Made by a program: the position numbers and the translations under genes
Notes under the pieces: generated by a model
Database searches by the model: none
What the model was told of the DNA's origin: nothing
What the model saw: only the letters and a program-made list of their open reading frames with translations
Origin: Chloroflexota bacterium
GTDB lineage: Bacteria > Chloroflexota > Anaerolineae > VGOG01
Direction: 5' to 3'
NCBI GenBank assembly: GCA_030615705.1
Contig: JAUWYT010000017.1
Location: 1-12,068, forward strand
Length of the DNA: 12,068 bases
Part shown: piece by piece, positions 1,414 to 10,574 of the stretch
Layout of the letters: each line of letters begins with the position of its first letter
How positions within the stretch are numbered: the first letter of the stretch is position 1

Positions 1414-2652
1414 ATGGAATTAGTCGGCCGTGTCATTAAAGGCATCTACAAACTACTGGACGAGATCGGTAGCGGCGGTATGGCGACGGTGTACGTCGCC
1501 CGCAGCTTGCTGACTAACGAAATCGTCGCCGTCAAGATCCTGCACAGCCATATTGTCGAGCAGACGAAGTTTGTCAAACGCTTCAAGCGGGAGGGCAAGA
1601 TCCTGTCAGGCCTGCTCGACCGGCACATCATACGAGTCTGTGACTATGGCGTAGATGATAACCTGCACTTTATAGTCACCGAGTACGTCACTGGATTCAC
1701 GCTAGATGCAAGCCTCGAAGGGCTTGGTCCCTTGAATGTTGATTTGGCGCTTGGTATTGCCCGGCAGGTGGCCGAGGGACTACGAGTGACTTCCGACCAC
1801 AGTATTGTGCACCGGGACATCCGGCCGGGGAACTTGATGATCACCCGTGACGGTGTCGTTAAGATCGCTGATTTCGGGATCGCGAAGAGTCTAGGACTTC
1901 CCCGTATCACCGAACCCGGCTTTCTTCCCGGAGGCACCCCGTTCTACATTTCACCGGAGCAGTTGAAGGGCGACGTAGATATCCGCTCTGACATCTACTC
2001 TCTAGGGGTGACTTTATATGAGATGTTGATCGGCCAACCCCCCTTCATAGGAGAGAATGCGGTTGAAGTTGCTTTGAAGATCGAAAAGGTCCCTCCACCT
2101 TCACTGAGCAAACAGAGAAATGACATCTCTCCCGAACTTGAGGCATTGGTGCATAGTTGCTTGGCCAAACAACCTCAGGATAGATTCCAGACCCCACAGG
2201 AATTTATAGAGGCCATAGATAAGATTCCGGGTATTACTGCGGCGGAGGAAACTACCATTGCGAAAGCAGTTGCCCAAATGGCTGATTCAATGGCTTGTAG
2301 AGAACCCACACTTCTCCCAGCAACTGCTCCCTCTGAGGGGGCCGCTTTGGTCACGAGCAGTGGGCAGCGGTTTCCCATCAGAGGTGCCGTGGTCAGGATA
2401 GGTCGCAAGGACAGGCACAGGGGTATCTATCCTGATATTGATCTGCGTCCGCTGGATTCGCGTCGCCAAGTCTCCCGGCTGCACGCGCAGATCCGGCGCA
2501 AAGGAGAACGGTGGGTCGTCCTTGAGGAGAATGGCGTCCTCAATGGGACCTGGGTGAACAACCGTAGAATACGGGCCGGAGTAGAGGTGCCTATCAAACA
2601 TGGTGACAGACTTCGTCTCGCCGGTGTCCGGTTGATCTTTGAAGAACGATAG
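1414..2652 (+). CDS. Soluble Ser/Thr protein kinase with C-terminal FHA domain
   Basis: A 412-residue Hanks-type kinase. Kinase domain at about residues 11-265: Gly-rich loop GSGGMATVY (19-27), ATP-binding Lys41 in VAVK, catalytic HRD at 133-135, Asn140, DFG at 153-155 and SPE at 180-182. The catalytic loop reads HRDIRPGN, with Arg137 where most Ser/Thr kinases have Lys. A linker (about 266-309) contains EETT (Thr280/281) and EPTLL (Thr299), possible phosphosites. An FHA domain fills about 310-410, with the phosphothreonine-pocket residues in place: IGR (Arg331), SRLHA (Ser354, His357) and NGTWVN (Asn382). There is no membrane helix or signal peptide, so it should act in the cytoplasm, where the FHA could recruit phosphorylated partners or its own phosphorylated linker. 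ATG 1414 has GGGAG seven bases upstream and follows the secreted protein by 20 bases, consistent with one operon. Confidence 0.93.
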   Translation: MELVGRVIKGIYKLLDEIGSGGMATVYVARSLLTNEIVAVKILHSHIVEQTKFVKRFKREGKILSGLLDRHIIRVCDYGVDDNLHFIVTEYVTGFTLDASLEGLGPLNVDLALGIARQVAEGLRVTSDHSIVHRDIRPGNLMITRDGVVKIADFGIAKSLGLPRITEPGFLPGGTPFYISPEQLKGDVDIRSDIYSLGVTLYEMLIGQPPFIGENAVEVALKIEKVPPPSLSKQRNDISPELEALVHSCLAKQPQDRFQTPQEFIEAIDKIPGITAAEETTIAKAVAQMADSMACREPTLLPATAPSEGAALVTSSGQRFPIRGAVVRIGRKDRHRGIYPDIDLRPLDSRRQVSRLHAQIRRKGERWVVLEENGVLNGTWVNNRRIRAGVEVPIKHGDRLRLAGVRLIFEER

Positions 2653-2745
2653 CATTCGTCTGACCGCGGCTAAGTGAGCAAAGGGTCGCTAGCCGATGGG
2701 ATAGAAGCCGGGGGTAGCAATTCGCCAAAGTCTTGTCACATACAA

Positions 2746-2752
2746 GAGGAGG
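2746..2752 (+). promoter_or_regulatory. Ribosome binding site fixing the start of the FHA protein
   Basis: GAGGAGG lies seven bases before ATG 2760 and selects this start over an in-frame upstream start near 2733. The longer string GAGGAGGCGAC is repeated exactly before the PP2C gene (7536-7546). Confidence 0.8.
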
Positions 2753-2759
2753 CGACACA

Positions 2760-3191
2760 ATGCGTCTAAGTGGGTTAGAATTGGTCAATGGGCGGATTAT
2801 CTGCATCGGTCTATTGACAATTAGTGGAGAACGAATCAAGGAGATGCGCCGTCCAAGCACACCTTCGGCAGCGCTGGTTACAAGCAGCGGACACATCTTT
2901 CCGCTAAGGAAACCGATGGTGAGCATAGGGCGAACTGACCGCTTCAATGGGATCTTTCCGGAGGTTGATCTATCTGCTGAAGATCCCATGAGATACATTT
3001 CACGGCGACATGCCAGATTGCTTCGCAAAGGCCAACAGTGGGTACTTGTTGAGCAGCCTGGGGCGAAGCACGGCACCTATCTCAATGGGCGCAGGCTGGG
3101 CTCTGGGGTTGAAACCCCGGTGAGAAGCGGTGATTCTATCCGCTTAGCAAGGACCAAGCTGACCTTCCGGTCAAGAAGCAATTACAGTTAG
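2760..3191 (+). CDS. Small stand-alone FHA-domain protein
   Basis: A 143-residue protein that is almost entirely one FHA domain (about residues 38-138), a fold that binds phosphothreonine peptides. Pocket residues are present: IGR with Arg58, SRRHA with Ser81 and His84, and GTYLNG. By hand alignment about 50 of 98 residues match the FHA domain of the preceding kinase, including the unusual ALVTSSG opening, so the two are duplicates. The first 37 residues are not FHA; they include a short hydrophobic run (IICIGLLTI) that matches the start of the next protein's signal peptide at the same positions but is interrupted by charged residues and probably no longer works as a signal. It would act as a cytoplasmic adaptor for targets of the local kinases (inference). 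The start at 2760 is chosen from the strong GAGGAGG site. Confidence 0.88.
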   Translation: MRLSGLELVNGRIICIGLLTISGERIKEMRRPSTPSAALVTSSGHIFPLRKPMVSIGRTDRFNGIFPEVDLSAEDPMRYISRRHARLLRKGQQWVLVEQPGAKHGTYLNGRRLGSGVETPVRSGDSIRLARTKLTFRSRSNYS

Positions 3192-3291: not shown

Positions 3292-5493
3292 ATGAGCAAG
3301 AAGGGCTTGAAGGCAATCTATGGCTTGGTGCTTTGCATTGGCTTACTAACCGTGGTTGTTACGCCACTGATTAGCTCGGCGCAAGAGCCCAAGGACGTGA
3401 CCATCAACTACATCGAAGCGGTCCGCGTTGCTGAAATCCCGCCGTATGAGGTACACGCCTACGTAACGGTATCCGACGCCGATGGGGCCCCGATCCCTGG
3501 AATAGACGCAGCCAACTTCACAGTACTCGAAGACGCTAAGAAGATGACCATCACTGAGGTAGCAACGGCAGTGGATAGCATAGCCGTGGTCCTTGTGCTC
3601 GATACCAGCGACAGCATGCGGGTGCCAGATCAATCGGGAAGGGTGCCGATAGACGAAGCCAAGAAGGCAGCAGCGGATTTCATCTGGAGCCTGGCCGACC
3701 AGGACAAAGTTGCCGTATATAGCTTCAACGAGGAGGCGACCCTTGAGATAGACTTCACCATAGACCACGGTGCGGCGATCAATGCGGTGAATCACCTGAC
3801 CACAGAGCCAAAATGGACTTGTCTCTACGATGCGGCTTTTGAGGGGGTGAACAAGACTGCAGAGATCCCAGAAGGGAGGAGGGCTATCGTTCTTCTCACT
3901 GATGGCGTGGATCAAAGCGACTCAGAACGCAGGCCATGTAGCCAAGTGAGGCTTGAAGATGTTAAAGCTAAGGCCGCGGAGATCAATGTCCCCCTCTACA
4001 CGATAGGGTTAGGGTCCGAGGTATACCTCAATGCGCGGGCTAAGCAGGATTTGGGGAGCTTGGCCAAGCGCACTGGTGGGCGAAGCCTTTTTGCGCCTAC
4101 CTCAGCCGAGTTAGGGGGGCTCTTCGGGGTCATCGCTAATCAACTGAAGAATCAATACGTGATCAAGTATAGATCTGGGGCCGCCAGTGCGGGGCACCAT
4201 AGCCTCAAAGTAAAAGTGCAGCATAAAGCCTGGCAAGACGATGACCAAAAGGGATTCTATACGCCACCTATACCGACAATTGAATCTGTTACTGTTAGCG
4301 CGCCTGGCCCGGTAACCCAAGGTGAAATGGTGTCCATTGAAGTGACGGTTACCTACCAGAGTATGGTAAAGAAGGTCCAGTTCTATGTTGATGGCGAAGC
4401 GCAGCCTCCGGTAACCTTGCCACCCTATGTCTGGCAATGGGATACTACTGAAGTCTTGGCAGGGCCCCATACTATAAGAGTCCAGGTTCACGACGACAAG
4501 GGTCCAACGGATGCTAGAGAGCTGAGCATTGAGATCAAGGCGCTGCCGACGTTGACGCCGACACCTGCACCTAGGCCCACGCCCACACTCGCACCCACAC
4601 CCATACCTTGCAGACCAGAAATTCTTTTTGTGAGCCCACCCGAGGGGTTAGTTCAAGATGAAGTGACAATTGAAGCAGAAGTTGCCACCTGCCAAAGTAG
4701 GGTGAAGAAAGTTCAATGTTATATAAATGATAAACCAGAACCTCCCATGACCTCGCCTCCCTATCGCTTTGTGTGGGACAGTGCTCAAGCTGGTGCAGGC
4801 CATCATACGCTCAGTTGTGAGGTTTACGACAACGAGGGCGTGGCTGACACTGCGAAGAGAAGTGTACGTGTTCGAGAGGGAATTAACTGGTACACAGTTG
4901 CTCTCCTGGCTTTGGCTGTGGGGCTTATGGCAGGAATTGTAGTCTTGCGAAGACGTCGGCGGGAACTTGAGTTCTTTGAGGAGGAGTATATACCTCCAGA
5001 TGAGATCTCAGATCAGGTGACGCGTGAAATGGATGAGGAGACGAGAGACGTATCTATGGAGCCAATAGCGACTCTGGGAGTCATCCAGAGCGTCGAGCTC
5101 AGCCCAGGTGAGACGTTTGAGTTGTTCGCCCGCAGTACCAGTATTGGTCGTGGTGCGGACAACGATATTCTCATCCCAGACCGGCCTGTCTCCAGGGAGC
5201 ATGCCAGTCTCATATTTGAAGAGGGCCGCTTCCGGATTTTCGACGTAGGCAGCACTTTCGGCACTAAGGTAAATGGGGCTCCAGTCCCAGCTGAAGGAGT
5301 CCGGTTGAGAGACAAGGATAGGATACAAGTAGGAACACGCACGGTGCTGGAGTTCACCCAACTGGAAGTGGAGAGATGCCCAACGGGCGAGGAGACTCGG
5401 CAGGTGGAGGGCGAAGAGGAAACTCGGGATATGGGCGAGGAAATAGAGAGCACGGAAGACACCCGAGACATGGACAAGCTGGAACAGGACTAA
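3292..5493 (+). CDS. Membrane vWA-Ig-Ig-TM-FHA protein
   Basis: A 733-residue protein spanning the membrane once. Order: signal peptide (1-30, cleavage near SSA|QEP); a beta-rich N-terminal part (about 38-92); a vWA domain (about 97-285) with an intact MIDAS metal site, DTSDS at 104-108, Thr176 in TCLYDA and Asp204 in LTDG; an Ig-like domain (about 327-418); a Pro/Thr-rich linker (about 419-440); a second, related Ig-like domain (about 441-527; both contain VKKVQ and PPY); a membrane helix (533-552) followed by RRRRR (553-557); then a cytoplasmic FHA domain (about 600-690; Arg620, Ser634, His637, Asn661). The vWA part should bind a ligand outside, with the FHA reading phosphothreonine inside. 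Five T-R-x-(M/V) motifs flank the FHA (Thr577, 584, 702, 711, 724), set in acidic sequence. ATG 3292 follows GGGGGAG by four bases. The order is opposite to that of the kinase and phosphatase downstream. Confidence 0.93.
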   Translation: MSKKGLKAIYGLVLCIGLLTVVVTPLISSAQEPKDVTINYIEAVRVAEIPPYEVHAYVTVSDADGAPIPGIDAANFTVLEDAKKMTITEVATAVDSIAVVLVLDTSDSMRVPDQSGRVPIDEAKKAAADFIWSLADQDKVAVYSFNEEATLEIDFTIDHGAAINAVNHLTTEPKWTCLYDAAFEGVNKTAEIPEGRRAIVLLTDGVDQSDSERRPCSQVRLEDVKAKAAEINVPLYTIGLGSEVYLNARAKQDLGSLAKRTGGRSLFAPTSAELGGLFGVIANQLKNQYVIKYRSGAASAGHHSLKVKVQHKAWQDDDQKGFYTPPIPTIESVTVSAPGPVTQGEMVSIEVTVTYQSMVKKVQFYVDGEAQPPVTLPPYVWQWDTTEVLAGPHTIRVQVHDDKGPTDARELSIEIKALPTLTPTPAPRPTPTLAPTPIPCRPEILFVSPPEGLVQDEVTIEAEVATCQSRVKKVQCYINDKPEPPMTSPPYRFVWDSAQAGAGHHTLSCEVYDNEGVADTAKRSVRVREGINWYTVALLALAVGLMAGIVVLRRRRRELEFFEEEYIPPDEISDQVTREMDEETRDVSMEPIATLGVIQSVELSPGETFELFARSTSIGRGADNDILIPDRPVSREHASLIFEEGRFRIFDVGSTFGTKVNGAPVPAEGVRLRDKDRIQVGTRTVLEFTQLEVERCPTGEETRQVEGEEETRDMGEEIESTEDTRDMDKLEQD

Positions 5494-7553: not shown

Positions 7554-9074
7554 ATGGCAGAGAAGATCAAGTTCGAGGTGGGAAAAGCCAGTCATCCTGG
7601 CCGTAAACGGGATCATAATGAGGACAGCCTCGGCTTCTTTGAGCCAGAGGATCCCGACCAGCTTGCTGAAAGAGGAGCTATTTATATTGTTGCTGATGGG
7701 ATGGGCGGCCACGAGGCGGGTGCAGTTGCCAGCGACCGCGCTTGGCGAAAAGTGATAGATGAATACTACTACGGTGATCCTGCTCTTGGCATAAAGGAAA
7801 GTTTGGAGAGGGCCATTAAGATCGCTAATGAGGAGATATATGGGTTAGCTTCCCGTAACCCGACCTGGGCCGGGATGGGATCTACCATCGTCGCAGCCGT
7901 CTTGCATGGTGAGAATGAGCTGTACGTCGCCAATGTAGGCGATAGTAGAGCTTACCTGGTGCGCGCTGATGAAATAAGGCAAATCACAAAGGATCACTCT
8001 TGGGTCCGGCAGCAGATAGATGCTGCCAATCTTACCCCAGAGGAAGCCAAGAGGCACCCTCGTCGCAGCGCCATTACTCGTTCTTTGGGCAGGCGGCCTG
8101 ATGTTCAAGTGGATGTCTTTGAGGAAGAATTGCAGCCGGACGATAAACTGATTCTTTGCTCTGATGGATTATCTGATGTCGTGAGAGATGAAGAGATTGC
8201 AAAGATCGCCTCCAGCTACAAGGCACAAGAAGCTGTTCAGAAGATGGTTGATCTAGCCAACCATCGAGGGGGACCCGACAACATCACCGCTATTGCCCTC
8301 AGCTACCCTACAGGCATTGCAGCGCCGACTGGGGTCTTGAAGTGGATCGTTGGTTTGGGCATATTAGCTGTTGTTGCGATGGCAGTCATTGTTGGACTTG
8401 AGTATATTATTGCGCCTAAGCAGCTCACTCCCACTCCTGGCCCTACTCCCATCATAACTCCAACCACTCCGCCTGCGACGGCAGCAATGCCTCCAACATT
8501 TACACCAGTGTCTCCGACACCTAGACCAATGTCTCCAACACCTACACCAGTGCCTCCAACACCTACGCCAACGCTTCCAACACCTACATCAGCAAGACCT
8601 CAGGTTGCACCAACATCAACCATAGCTCTGACTCCTGGGCCACCGGCCGTCGTGACGACATTGCCCACCCCATCGCCAACAACACTGGCCCCATCGCCAA
8701 CACCAACCCTCCTTCCAGCACCGACACTGAGCGAGCCGGTGGACGAGGTTGAATTCGTACGCGGTCAAGAGGTTGTCCTGCGATGGGAATGGACGGAGAC
8801 CCTAGGCCCTGATATGCGGTTCAGTGTGCTGATGCGACATGAAGAACAGGAGTCGCACATAGAGATTGGCTGTGTGACAAGTAAGGAATACAGCTTGGGG
8901 CATGAGCCACCGTCGTCCAAGTATGGCCACTATTTTTGGAAGGTAGTGGTAGTACGAGAGGTGGAAGATGCGACAGTTCAAGAAGTCAGCAAACTCAGCG
9001 AAGAACAGCGCTTCTGGTGGCTTTGGCCCAAAGAGGTGCCGAGACCAACGCGAACAACAGGTCCACCACACTAA
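7554..9074 (+). CDS. Membrane PP2C-family Ser/Thr phosphatase with outer domain
   Basis: A 506-residue PPM/PP2C phosphatase, the likely counterpart of the two kinases: it removes phosphate from Ser/Thr with two bound Mg/Mn ions. The catalytic domain (about 5-255) has all main motifs: RKRDHNED (17-24), VADGMGGHEAG (metal ligand Asp48, Gly49), GSTIVAAVL, GDSRAYL, KDHSWV, SDGLSD (203-208) and GGPDNIT (Asp242, Asn243). A membrane helix follows at about 264-284, then a Thr/Pro-rich linker (about 289-390) and an outer domain (about 393-506) with Ig/Fn3-like strands (VVLRWEWTE, YFWKVVVVRE) and a Trp-rich tail. The build matches the kinase upstream: catalytic domain inside, beta domain outside, joined by helix and TP linker. 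The outer domains are not clearly the same, so they may read different cues. It lies 73 bases after the der remnant, in line with the same operon. Confidence 0.95.
   Translation: MAEKIKFEVGKASHPGRKRDHNEDSLGFFEPEDPDQLAERGAIYIVADGMGGHEAGAVASDRAWRKVIDEYYYGDPALGIKESLERAIKIANEEIYGLASRNPTWAGMGSTIVAAVLHGENELYVANVGDSRAYLVRADEIRQITKDHSWVRQQIDAANLTPEEAKRHPRRSAITRSLGRRPDVQVDVFEEELQPDDKLILCSDGLSDVVRDEEIAKIASSYKAQEAVQKMVDLANHRGGPDNITAIALSYPTGIAAPTGVLKWIVGLGILAVVAMAVIVGLEYIIAPKQLTPTPGPTPIITPTTPPATAAMPPTFTPVSPTPRPMSPTPTPVPPTPTPTLPTPTSARPQVAPTSTIALTPGPPAVVTTLPTPSPTTLAPSPTPTLLPAPTLSEPVDEVEFVRGQEVVLRWEWTETLGPDMRFSVLMRHEEQESHIEIGCVTSKEYSLGHEPPSSKYGHYFWKVVVVREVEDATVQEVSKLSEEQRFWWLWPKEVPRPTRTTGPPH
8484..8588 (+). 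repeat. Five 21-bp tandem repeats in the PP2C linker
   Basis: Five adjacent copies of a 21-bp unit close to CCAATGTCTCCAACACCTAC plus A begin at 8484, 8505, 8526, 8547 and 8568. Each encodes a seven-residue unit of the PxxPTPT type. The unit is a multiple of three bases, so copy number can drift and alter the reach of the outer domain without frameshift. Confidence 0.8.
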
Positions 9075-9134: not shown

Positions 9135-10574
9135 GTGATACAAAGTCATAGAAGGTCTGAGTACACCATCTATTTCCACTTGCTTACTCTAGGCTTATTT
9201 GCCTTGATCATTGCGTTCCTTGCCGGAATAAGCCCTATCGCAACAAAGGTGAGTCTAGCTGACCAGCCAAGCCCCATCTTGCAGATAAGCAAGACAGCCA
9301 AGCCGGAGCCAGTGGCTCCTGGGGGGCTGCTCACGTATACACTGGCGGTGACGAATACAGGCGATGCTCGCGCGACGGTGTTGGTCATCACAGATACGAT
9401 CCCCCTGAGCACAACTTGGCACAGCGGTGGTTCCTACTTTGCTGATCGTCATGAAGTATTATGGGTTGAGCCTGCTTTGGAAATTAATGAGTGCATTACG
9501 AAGACATTCACTGTTGGAGTCGATGCGGACAGTGTCACAAATGCTGGTTTTATCAAAAATGATATGTATGGCGTCAAATGTGCGGAGAGAGTGGCCCCAA
9601 CTACGGGCACGCCGATAATAACTACCGTCAAACTTGCAGACTTGGCTATCTCCAAGACAGGACCTCCTTCGATTGCTCCTGGAGAGAGAATATCCTATCA
9701 AATCACCTATACCAACACGGGCGGAACTGCTGAGAATGTCATCATTACTGAGACACTTCCAGTACTTCTGGAGTACTTGAGTAGCAACCGAGAACCCGTC
9801 GTGCAACAAGGTCAGAGAGTAATATGGGATGTGAGGACGGTGGTGGGTGGTCCGCACACACTAGTCCTCACAGGTGTAGTGAACAGTAACATATTAAGGC
9901 CCATTACCCTCACTAATCGGGTAACAGTAAGTACAAGTGTATCGGAGGTCTTTACAGGCAACAACTTTGGCTCATGCGAAACTCGTGTTATCCCAACTGC
10001 TGTTGTCAAAAAGATCTATCTTCCAATTGTTCTCAGAGACTACTCTGTTCTTTGCAATGGGGGCTTTGAGACCGGCAATTTTGACTGTTGGGAGCACGGC
10101 GGGGATCTCCCGCAACCCATTGTAAGCTCTCCTTACGCGCACTCAGACAAGTATGCGGCATTACTTGGGGATTCTAGCTATTGTAACACCTCGGATCCCG
10201 ATGAGCTAGGAGATCACAAGGCTTGGATGTATCAAACTTTCTTTGTTCCATTTATGGATATGCCTAATCTGACATTCTGGTACCGCGTCCAAACCTATGA
10301 CCATATCAAGTGGACTGATGGCCGCTTGGGGGACTCCTTTGATGTCTACATCAACGACAATCTTATCCTACAAGATAACTACGACAACTATCCAGACCCT
10401 GCTCTTGGTTGCGACTCTCTACAGGACTTGGGTTGGAAGCAATTCATGCATGACCTTACACCTCTTAGGGGTCAGAAGATCACGTTGCGTTTCGAGAACG
10501 CGACCAGAGTTGATGGGTGGTATAACACTTGGACATATGTGGATGATGTGCAGATTCAAGCGGCGGCACAATGA
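9135..10574 (+). CDS. Secreted DUF11-repeat surface protein
   Basis: A 479-residue exported protein. A signal peptide (hydrophobic core about 13-31, possible cleavage near SLA|DQ at 42) is followed by two DUF11-type beta repeats. The first (about 47-150) begins LQISKTAKPEPVAPGGLLTY and has VTNTGDA and ITDTIP; the second (about 166-285) has LAISKTGPPSIAPGE, YTNTGGTAENVIITETLP. A KKIYLPIVLRDY spacer (about 292-303), typical of Chloroflexota surface proteins, leads to a C-terminal jelly-roll-like module (about 306-475) opening NGGFETGNFDCW and ending in WTYVDDVQI, resembling carbohydrate-binding or MAM-like domains. There is no sorting signal or C-terminal helix that I can see. Start: GTG 9135 with GGAGGT eight bases upstream; the PP2C stop is 60 bases before. 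It is the last gene before the terminator and could be a surface client of the signalling genes, but its ligand is unknown. Confidence 0.88.
   Translation: MIQSHRRSEYTIYFHLLTLGLFALIIAFLAGISPIATKVSLADQPSPILQISKTAKPEPVAPGGLLTYTLAVTNTGDARATVLVITDTIPLSTTWHSGGSYFADRHEVLWVEPALEINECITKTFTVGVDADSVTNAGFIKNDMYGVKCAERVAPTTGTPIITTVKLADLAISKTGPPSIAPGERISYQITYTNTGGTAENVIITETLPVLLEYLSSNREPVVQQGQRVIWDVRTVVGGPHTLVLTGVVNSNILRPITLTNRVTVSTSVSEVFTGNNFGSCETRVIPTAVVKKIYLPIVLRDYSVLCNGGFETGNFDCWEHGGDLPQPIVSSPYAHSDKYAALLGDSSYCNTSDPDELGDHKAWMYQTFFVPFMDMPNLTFWYRVQTYDHIKWTDGRLGDSFDVYINDNLILQDNYDNYPDPALGCDSLQDLGWKQFMHDLTPLRGQKITLRFENATRVDGWYNTWTYVDDVQIQAAAQ

Follow-up and report, generated by a model that had tools for sequence, protein, structure and literature searches.

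The window, by which we mean the whole 12,068-nucleotide stretch of Chloroflexota DNA analysed here, encodes a putative membrane receptor with a von Willebrand factor A (vWA) domain outside and an FHA domain inside, preceded by genes for an FHA-bearing Ser/Thr kinase and a small FHA protein and followed by genes for a second Ser/Thr kinase and a PP2C phosphatase (Table 1). The phosphatase, a candidate eraser, scored 248.6 bits against the NCBIfam model Stp1_PP2C (cut-off 230). The small FHA gene is listed with a TTG start at 2733, and an ATG at 2760 with AGGAGG just upstream is likelier. Genes for a TadE/G-like protein (PF13400, 12-494) and a DUF11 protein (9135-10574) flank the cluster, perhaps a hint of a pilus or surface role. 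A minus-strand open reading frame (5013-5477) across the tail region described below was dismissed as a mechanical listing with no sign of a gene. A role in anti-phage defence was set aside as well, as padloc returned no match for the receptor or the small FHA protein and matched the other proteins only to kinase or phosphatase models.

Table 1 Features of the window, and small FHA adaptor genes of four other loci
Feature	Position	Strand	Evidence
Ser/Thr kinase bearing an FHA domain at its C-terminus; candidate both as kinase and as reader	1414..2652	+	Pfam
Small FHA protein; candidate reader	2733..3191	+	Pfam, start context
Membrane receptor, vWA-Big_7(x2)-TM-FHA, 733 aa	3292..5493	+	Pfam, AlphaFold2 model, NCBIfam TIGR03436 over cut-off
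vWA domain, residues 99-272, MIDAS DxSxS (D104, S106, S108)	3586..4107	+	Pfam PF00092
Two Big_7 Ig-like domains, about residues 333-397 and 444-527	4288..4872	+	Pfam (two stretches, best 333-397)
Transmembrane helix, residues 533-558	4888..4965	+	AlphaFold2 helix, hydropathy
N-side predicted disordered tail, residues 559-592	4966..5067	+	pLDDT <50 for 558-587
Thr577 site TREM, lineage-specific, Thr in 12/68 rows	5020..5031	+	sequence, alignment
Thr584 site DEE-TRDV, core N-side site, Thr in 64/68 rows	5041..5052	+	sequence, alignment
FHA domain, residues 593-690, phosphate pocket R620, S634, R635	5068..5361	+	Pfam PF00498
Thr682 TRTV, within the FHA fold, excluded from tail sites	5335..5346	+	sequence, AlphaFold2 model
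C-side predicted disordered tail, residues 691-733	5362..5490	+	pLDDT <50 for 695-733
Thr702 site GEE-TRQV, lineage-specific, Thr in 12/68 rows	5395..5406	+	sequence, alignment
Thr711 site EEE-TRDM, core C-side site, Thr in 66/68 rows	5422..5433	+	sequence, alignment
Thr724 site TED-TRDM, Thr in 28/68 rows, 24 gaps	5461..5472	+	sequence, alignment
Ser/Thr kinase, cysteine-containing N-terminus, C-terminal part past hydrophobic segment	5667..7310	+	Pfam, translation
Stp1-type PP2C phosphatase, C-terminal part past hydrophobic segment; candidate eraser	7554..9074	+	NCBIfam, translation
Small FHA adaptor, locus L038	14156-14758		
Small FHA adaptor, locus L158	4009-4698	-	
Small FHA adaptor, locus L163	4659-5273		
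Small FHA adaptor, locus L165	12523-13086		

The receptor exceeded the cut-off of NCBIfam TIGR03436 (VWA domain-containing protein; 105.2 versus 81.25 bits). Its relatives were sampled as 131 proteins (38 from one search and the best 120 of 555 from another), of which eight were dropped because they had no FHA match by the profile model used; from the remaining 123, P0036 and P0037 were removed as having other architectures, leaving 121 proteins including P0001, which represents the window protein's own cluster. Named members include Thermodesulfobacteriota, Desulfobacterales and Anaerolineales. An alignment of 68 rows combined the window protein with 67 relatives hand-picked from the 121 for spread, without P0001, and 55 family members with less than 70% FHA identity served as representatives. 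In the 68-row alignment D104, S106 and T176 of the vWA domain are invariant and S108 nearly so, in keeping with the MIDAS pattern (PMC6509490). The limits of the second Big_7 domain were taken from strands of the AlphaFold2 model, which was built with 68 sequences and has a mean pLDDT of 86.5, with 93-98 in the FHA blocks and below 50 in most of both tails, so that the unmodified tails are left at low confidence. A basic RRRRR directly follows the transmembrane helix, and we infer that the part beyond, comprising the FHA domain between two acidic, predicted disordered tails, is cytosolic.

The FHA domain was recognised by PF00498 (65.2 bits, cut-off 20.7), and the GR and SR of its phosphate pocket are kept in all 121 family proteins. 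An Asn near the GT turn is a frequent, though not defining, peptide contact of FHA domains. This residue is absent from the receptor FHA domain, which has F656 (5257-5259), and the position holds Tyr in 56, Asn in 46 and Phe in 12 of the 121 relatives. The nearest solved FHA domains by sequence are GarA, Rv1827 pThr22 and OdhI, then TB39.8 (which we take to be FhaA), Rv1747, DgcB and ArnA; among the listed structural matches GarA is the nearest FHA domain (38% identity), and GarA, OdhI and ArnA are all within the first 50. Among these are FHA domains with known binding to their own tail or to clustered sites. The receptor FHA domain is not an OdhI equivalog by NF041660 (47.4 bits, 200 required; NCBIfam). 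Because the Asn at the position of DgcB N97, which contacts the peptide backbone in that protein (PMC6733907, accessible part), is mostly replaced in the family, the receptor FHA domain may grip its peptide differently.

The original prediction had named five T-R-x-(M/V) motifs at T577, T584, T702, T711 and T724, mostly preceded by acidic pairs and lying in the two tails, with none inside the FHA domain. All five stand where they were placed, within the predicted disordered segments 558-587 and 695-733, and EE or ED precedes four of them, T577 having DQV before it. The exclusion from the FHA domain did not quite hold, as a sixth copy (TRTV at 682) occurs in the predicted fold, in the turn before the last FHA strand and just beyond the Pfam match (616-681); it has no preceding acidic pair. 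Compared with a mean of 0.056 expected from composition-preserving shuffles of the tails, five tail copies are far in excess (0 of 100,000 shuffles reached five). In the assembly (1.9 Mb, 79.6% complete) a DNA pattern encoding [DE][DE]T[R/S]x[MVI], sought on both strands, has 14 occurrences versus 18 for a reversed-pattern control, and four of the 14 fall in the receptor; the motif is thus no commoner genome-wide than the control, but is concentrated in the receptor. A recent DNA duplication as the origin of the copies is not favoured, because codons for the same residue often differ between them (702 and 711 share three of four).

As a conserved unit T-R-x-(M/V) failed. Arg at +1 is replaced by Ala, Glu or Gln at several sites even in orthologues of 71-76% identity, three of which have TAEI and TEDI on the N-side; the C-side sites are TRRM/TRDI/TRDM in P0002, TQRM/TQDI/TRDM in P0003, and TREW and TQDI in P0004, which is shorter at the C-terminus. 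The full motif was also rejected for the family, with no copy in 114 of the 121 proteins, one in four, two in two and five in one. Because the orthologue sites vary at +1 (TAEI, TEDI, TQRM, TQDI), the rule that the family sequences support is a Thr preceded by acids at -3 to -1 and commonly followed by a hydrophobic residue at +3, in both tails, with Arg at +1 optional. The expectation that the motif threonines persist while the tails drift was borne out for two of the five: in the 68 rows, aligned by MAFFT, which can favour matching threonines, T584 (64/68) and T711 (66/68) are kept with no Ser in either column, whereas T577 and T702 (12/68 each) and T724 (28/68) are not. Ser occurs in seven rows at each of the T577 and T702 columns. 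Among the tail columns listed, D/E582 (Asp in 49/68) and P591 (48/68) come next in conservation, and other tail columns drift. Judged from these sequences, acid-flanked threonines are mostly kept across relatives of at least two phyla while the rest of the tails changes.

Across the 121 proteins, which came from match lists limited to those most similar to the receptor, 255 of 756 tail threonines conform to a strict rule of at least two acids in -3 to -1, versus 106.7 by shuffle (z = 16.3), and 69 of 560 serines versus 73.8 (z = -0.6). The 55 representatives gave z values of 8.8 for Thr and -0.4 for Ser. Strict-rule sites lie on the N-side in 93 proteins, on the C-side in 95 and on both sides in 77; under a relaxed rule these counts are 115, 114 and 109, with one protein having none, and relaxed-rule serines occur in both tails of 25 proteins and in neither tail of 50. 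Hydrophobic residues occupy +3 at 32 of 52 N-side sites (p = 4e-9) and 34 of 57 C-side sites (p = 2e-10) of the representatives, and the median distance between site and FHA domain is 15 residues on the N-side and 15.5 on the C-side (121 proteins). These figures bear on whether the acidic Thr stretches might be charged disordered spacers or docking segments in which Thr has no phosphorylation role. The acidic, predicted disordered character of the tails would suit such spacers, and tail phosphorylation is itself a deduction from sequence, yet Thr alone among 18 residue types is strongly acid-flanked (z = 16.8; next Lys, 3.7; Ser, -0.7), and neither the absence of Ser from both core columns nor the +3 bias agrees with mere spacing; we regard this explanation as very improbable.

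The composition of the tail sites is similar to that of sites with measured kinase or FHA interactions. In the mycobacterial PknA-dependent logo, acids stand at -1 and -3 to -6 and Leu or Val at +3, and the self-peptides of DgcB, OdhI and GarA have a hydrophobic +3 and Glu at -2 (PMC7164672 and PMC6733907, as far as accessible). The predicted kinase sites read by an FHA domain fit in the preference for Thr over Ser, the acids at -3 to -1 and the +3 bias, and the motif itself had to be redefined. Counting against a phosphosite reading, PknB gave no significant motif in the accessible part of the same logo study (PMC7164672), and the strict rule leaves 10 of the 121 proteins without a site. Because acidic Thr motifs flank the FHA domain on both sides and are mostly kept, it is probable that the receptor grips itself or its neighbours by means of phosphorylated tails. 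With reasonable confidence we read the tails as putative kinase sites of a phosphothreonine switch on a membrane receptor, in which phosphothreonine would be gripped by the FHA domain of the receptor itself, of the next receptor or of neighbouring proteins.

The features expected of binding to the own tail, a conserved Thr in a predicted disordered tail near the FHA domain and a hydrophobic +3, are present here, and T584 lies nine residues ahead of the FHA fold. The switch might accordingly be confined to autoinhibition as in GarA and OdhI, which are among the nearest FHA structures and whose self-peptide is described as occluding other partners (PMC6733907, accessible part): the phosphorylated tail would close on its own FHA domain and free a partner bound in the unphosphorylated state. 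The closeness of the family sites to the FHA domain is consistent with this, but the sites of GarA and OdhI are N-terminal and the C-side site is here equally conserved (66/68), and a single FHA domain is unable to hold two or five sites at once. Autoinhibition as the sole function therefore appears unlikely to us.

Kinase and phosphatase genes often lie near vWA+FHA genes beyond the window. Twenty regions were fetched and 19 examined (L146 was left out as the same place as L037); of the 23 loci compared, 16 encode vWA and FHA (the window, L036-L038 and 12 further regions, several cut by contig ends) and seven vWA with no FHA match. Kinase and PP2C genes both lie near the vWA+FHA gene in 11 of the 16 loci and at least one of them in 14, L151 and L157 having neither; in the seven loci with vWA but no FHA match, PP2C was found in one and a kinase in none. 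Acid-flanked threonines were not significantly enriched in 19 distinct vWA+FHA proteins of the fetched loci (10 versus 6.8, z = 1.5), which are mostly more distant and in which four of the ten sites are those of the window protein. Applied to the receptors of L038, L158, L163 and L165, the strict rule picks out no acid-flanked tail Thr. The small FHA adaptors of these loci have 2, 3, 2 and 0 strict-rule sites, respectively, and four N-tail Thr columns are kept in all four copies (row L168, a wrong ORF, excluded from the alignment count). No FHA protein in view at L149, L151, L157 and L159 has a strict site. This suggests, for the few loci compared, that a Thr ladder can sit on the receptor or on the small FHA adaptor and is not always present.

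The separability of sites and receptor in those four loci, together with the two further FHA domains adjoining the receptor in the window, could also mean that the switch works in trans only, with tail phosphothreonines docking the FHA-kinase, the small FHA protein or both, and the receptor FHA domain reading something else; the binding of ArnB to ArnA is a precedent for reading in trans (PMC6509490, accessible part). The family sites nevertheless remain with the FHA-bearing receptor and usually flank its FHA domain on either side, and no FHA-kinase or small FHA neighbour was found for the site-bearing receptors of L036, L037 and L152, the first two being cut by contig ends. Docking in trans alone is a real possibility, though not the one we expect. 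The probabilities that we attach to the phosphothreonine switch and to its restriction to autoinhibition or to trans docking overlap and do not sum to one, as the latter two are narrower versions of the first.

Acid-flanked Thr did not emerge as a general rule for FHA proteins: such Thr is not enriched in FHA-kinases (10 proteins, z = 0.5) and moderately so in other FHA proteins (58 proteins, z = 3.1; Ser, -2.1). The FHA-kinase linker EETTIA was likewise rejected as a further conserved site, its Thr being kept in the four nearest relatives and lost in the next three, and the motif being absent from nine more distant ones (n = 16). Thirteen FHA proteins (L003, L016, L020, L022-L025, L027-L030, L032, L033) have a Thr shortly past the FHA domain in V[DG]A[GE]AT[AL]PL or a similar sequence, a possible further self-read site, followed by a part that presumably has a winged-helix-like look.

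For the phosphothreonine switch we favour a mixed model, in which the conserved sites near the FHA domain allow self-closure and the extra sites add cross-linking or recruitment. A ligand bound to the outer vWA and Ig-like part would gather receptors or alter access to the tails, and the acid-flanked threonines would be phosphorylated by a neighbouring Ser/Thr kinase, most simply the FHA-bearing one. The phosphothreonines could then be gripped in cis by the receptor's own FHA domain, closing the protein on itself, by the FHA domain of the next receptor, cross-linking receptors into clusters, or in trans by those of the small FHA protein and the FHA-kinase, which would thereby be recruited; the PP2C encoded nearby would reset the state. 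The conserved core would be one site on each side of the FHA domain, and the extra T577, T702 and T724 may raise valency or redundancy. Starting from one phospho-reader and at least one phospho-site on each side per receptor, phosphothreonine might even link receptors into head-to-tail chains or membrane condensates, with the number of sites setting a threshold, the FHA-kinase drawn in for positive feedback, PP2C resetting the assembly, and the ladder moved between receptor and small FHA adaptor across related gene clusters while the other toolkit stays constant. We put this polymer forward tentatively and think it rather doubtful.

Comparison with published systems, for which we refer to the accessible parts of the sources, places the receptor closest to switches already known. 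The vWA protein ArnB of Sulfolobus has ETTRR-type sites repeated at its C-terminus; their phosphorylation proceeds in sequence, and an FHA protein reads them redundantly (PMC6509490, PMC12852372). ArnB resembles the receptor in its clustered threonines and in the accompanying kinase/phosphatase pair (ArnC/ArnD, PP2A), and the window encodes a predicted site cluster, vWA and FHA domains, kinases and a phosphatase. As described there, ArnB lacks an FHA and a transmembrane part, has its sites in a helical bundle and is read by a separate zinc-finger/FHA protein, whereas the receptor would combine reader and sites in one membrane protein with the sites in disordered tails. The top Foldseek match of the receptor model was the ArnAB entry 8s05; the two superpose poorly (TM 0.22 by query, rmsd 16.3, 13% identity), and the match does no more than hint that vWA and beta-sandwich parts are shared. 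GarA, OdhI and DgcB share a Thr in a tail near the FHA domain, Glu at -2 and a hydrophobic +3; they differ in that the site is in the N-terminal tail, and the accessible text describes no C-side site and no receptor part. The Mycobacterium tuberculosis ABC transporter Rv1747 is likewise a membrane protein, in which a kinase makes the region of FHA domains and disordered linker more prone to condense, an effect that a phosphatase reverses (review PMC9312465), but its two FHA domains are joined by the linker and fused to a transporter, and no vWA domain is described in that portion of the review. The type VI secretion (T6SS) switch PpkA-Fha-PppA also unites a Thr kinase, a phosphatase and an FHA protein, and PpkA condensates are reported (PMC12607579); unlike that system, the window has no T6SS family among the Pfam matches of the nine proteins scanned, and TagH/Fha TIGR03354 scored 39.6 bits, below its cut-off of 120.25 (NCBIfam). 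MoxR-vWA ternary systems (PMC7159879) were not recognised either, with no MoxR AAA+ ATPase among the Pfam matches of the same nine proteins.

The claim that such an arrangement had not been described for a vWA receptor needs qualifying, because ArnB, on the accessible evidence, is a vWA protein with clustered sites read by an FHA protein. Phosphothreonine-tail/FHA switches are already known, and the present one would add a form that sits on a membrane vWA receptor, has sites on both sides of the FHA domain and extends across the family. Thr sites on both sides of the FHA domain in such a receptor had no description in the titles and abstracts of open-licence literature searched, which is weak evidence of novelty as most subscription papers lie outside that scope. 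To our knowledge, the substrates of the kinases in bacterial vWA/FHA/kinase clusters, and the targets of the FHA domains there, are seldom known. With the two-sided site pair, a single protein offers both the likely substrate residues and a likely reader, so that peptides and purified proteins would suffice for a direct test of the circuit. If the switch proves true, bacteria could regulate receptor clustering through the number of phosphosites, in line with what the accessible accounts report for the ArnB cluster (PMC12852372) and Rv1747 (PMC9312465).
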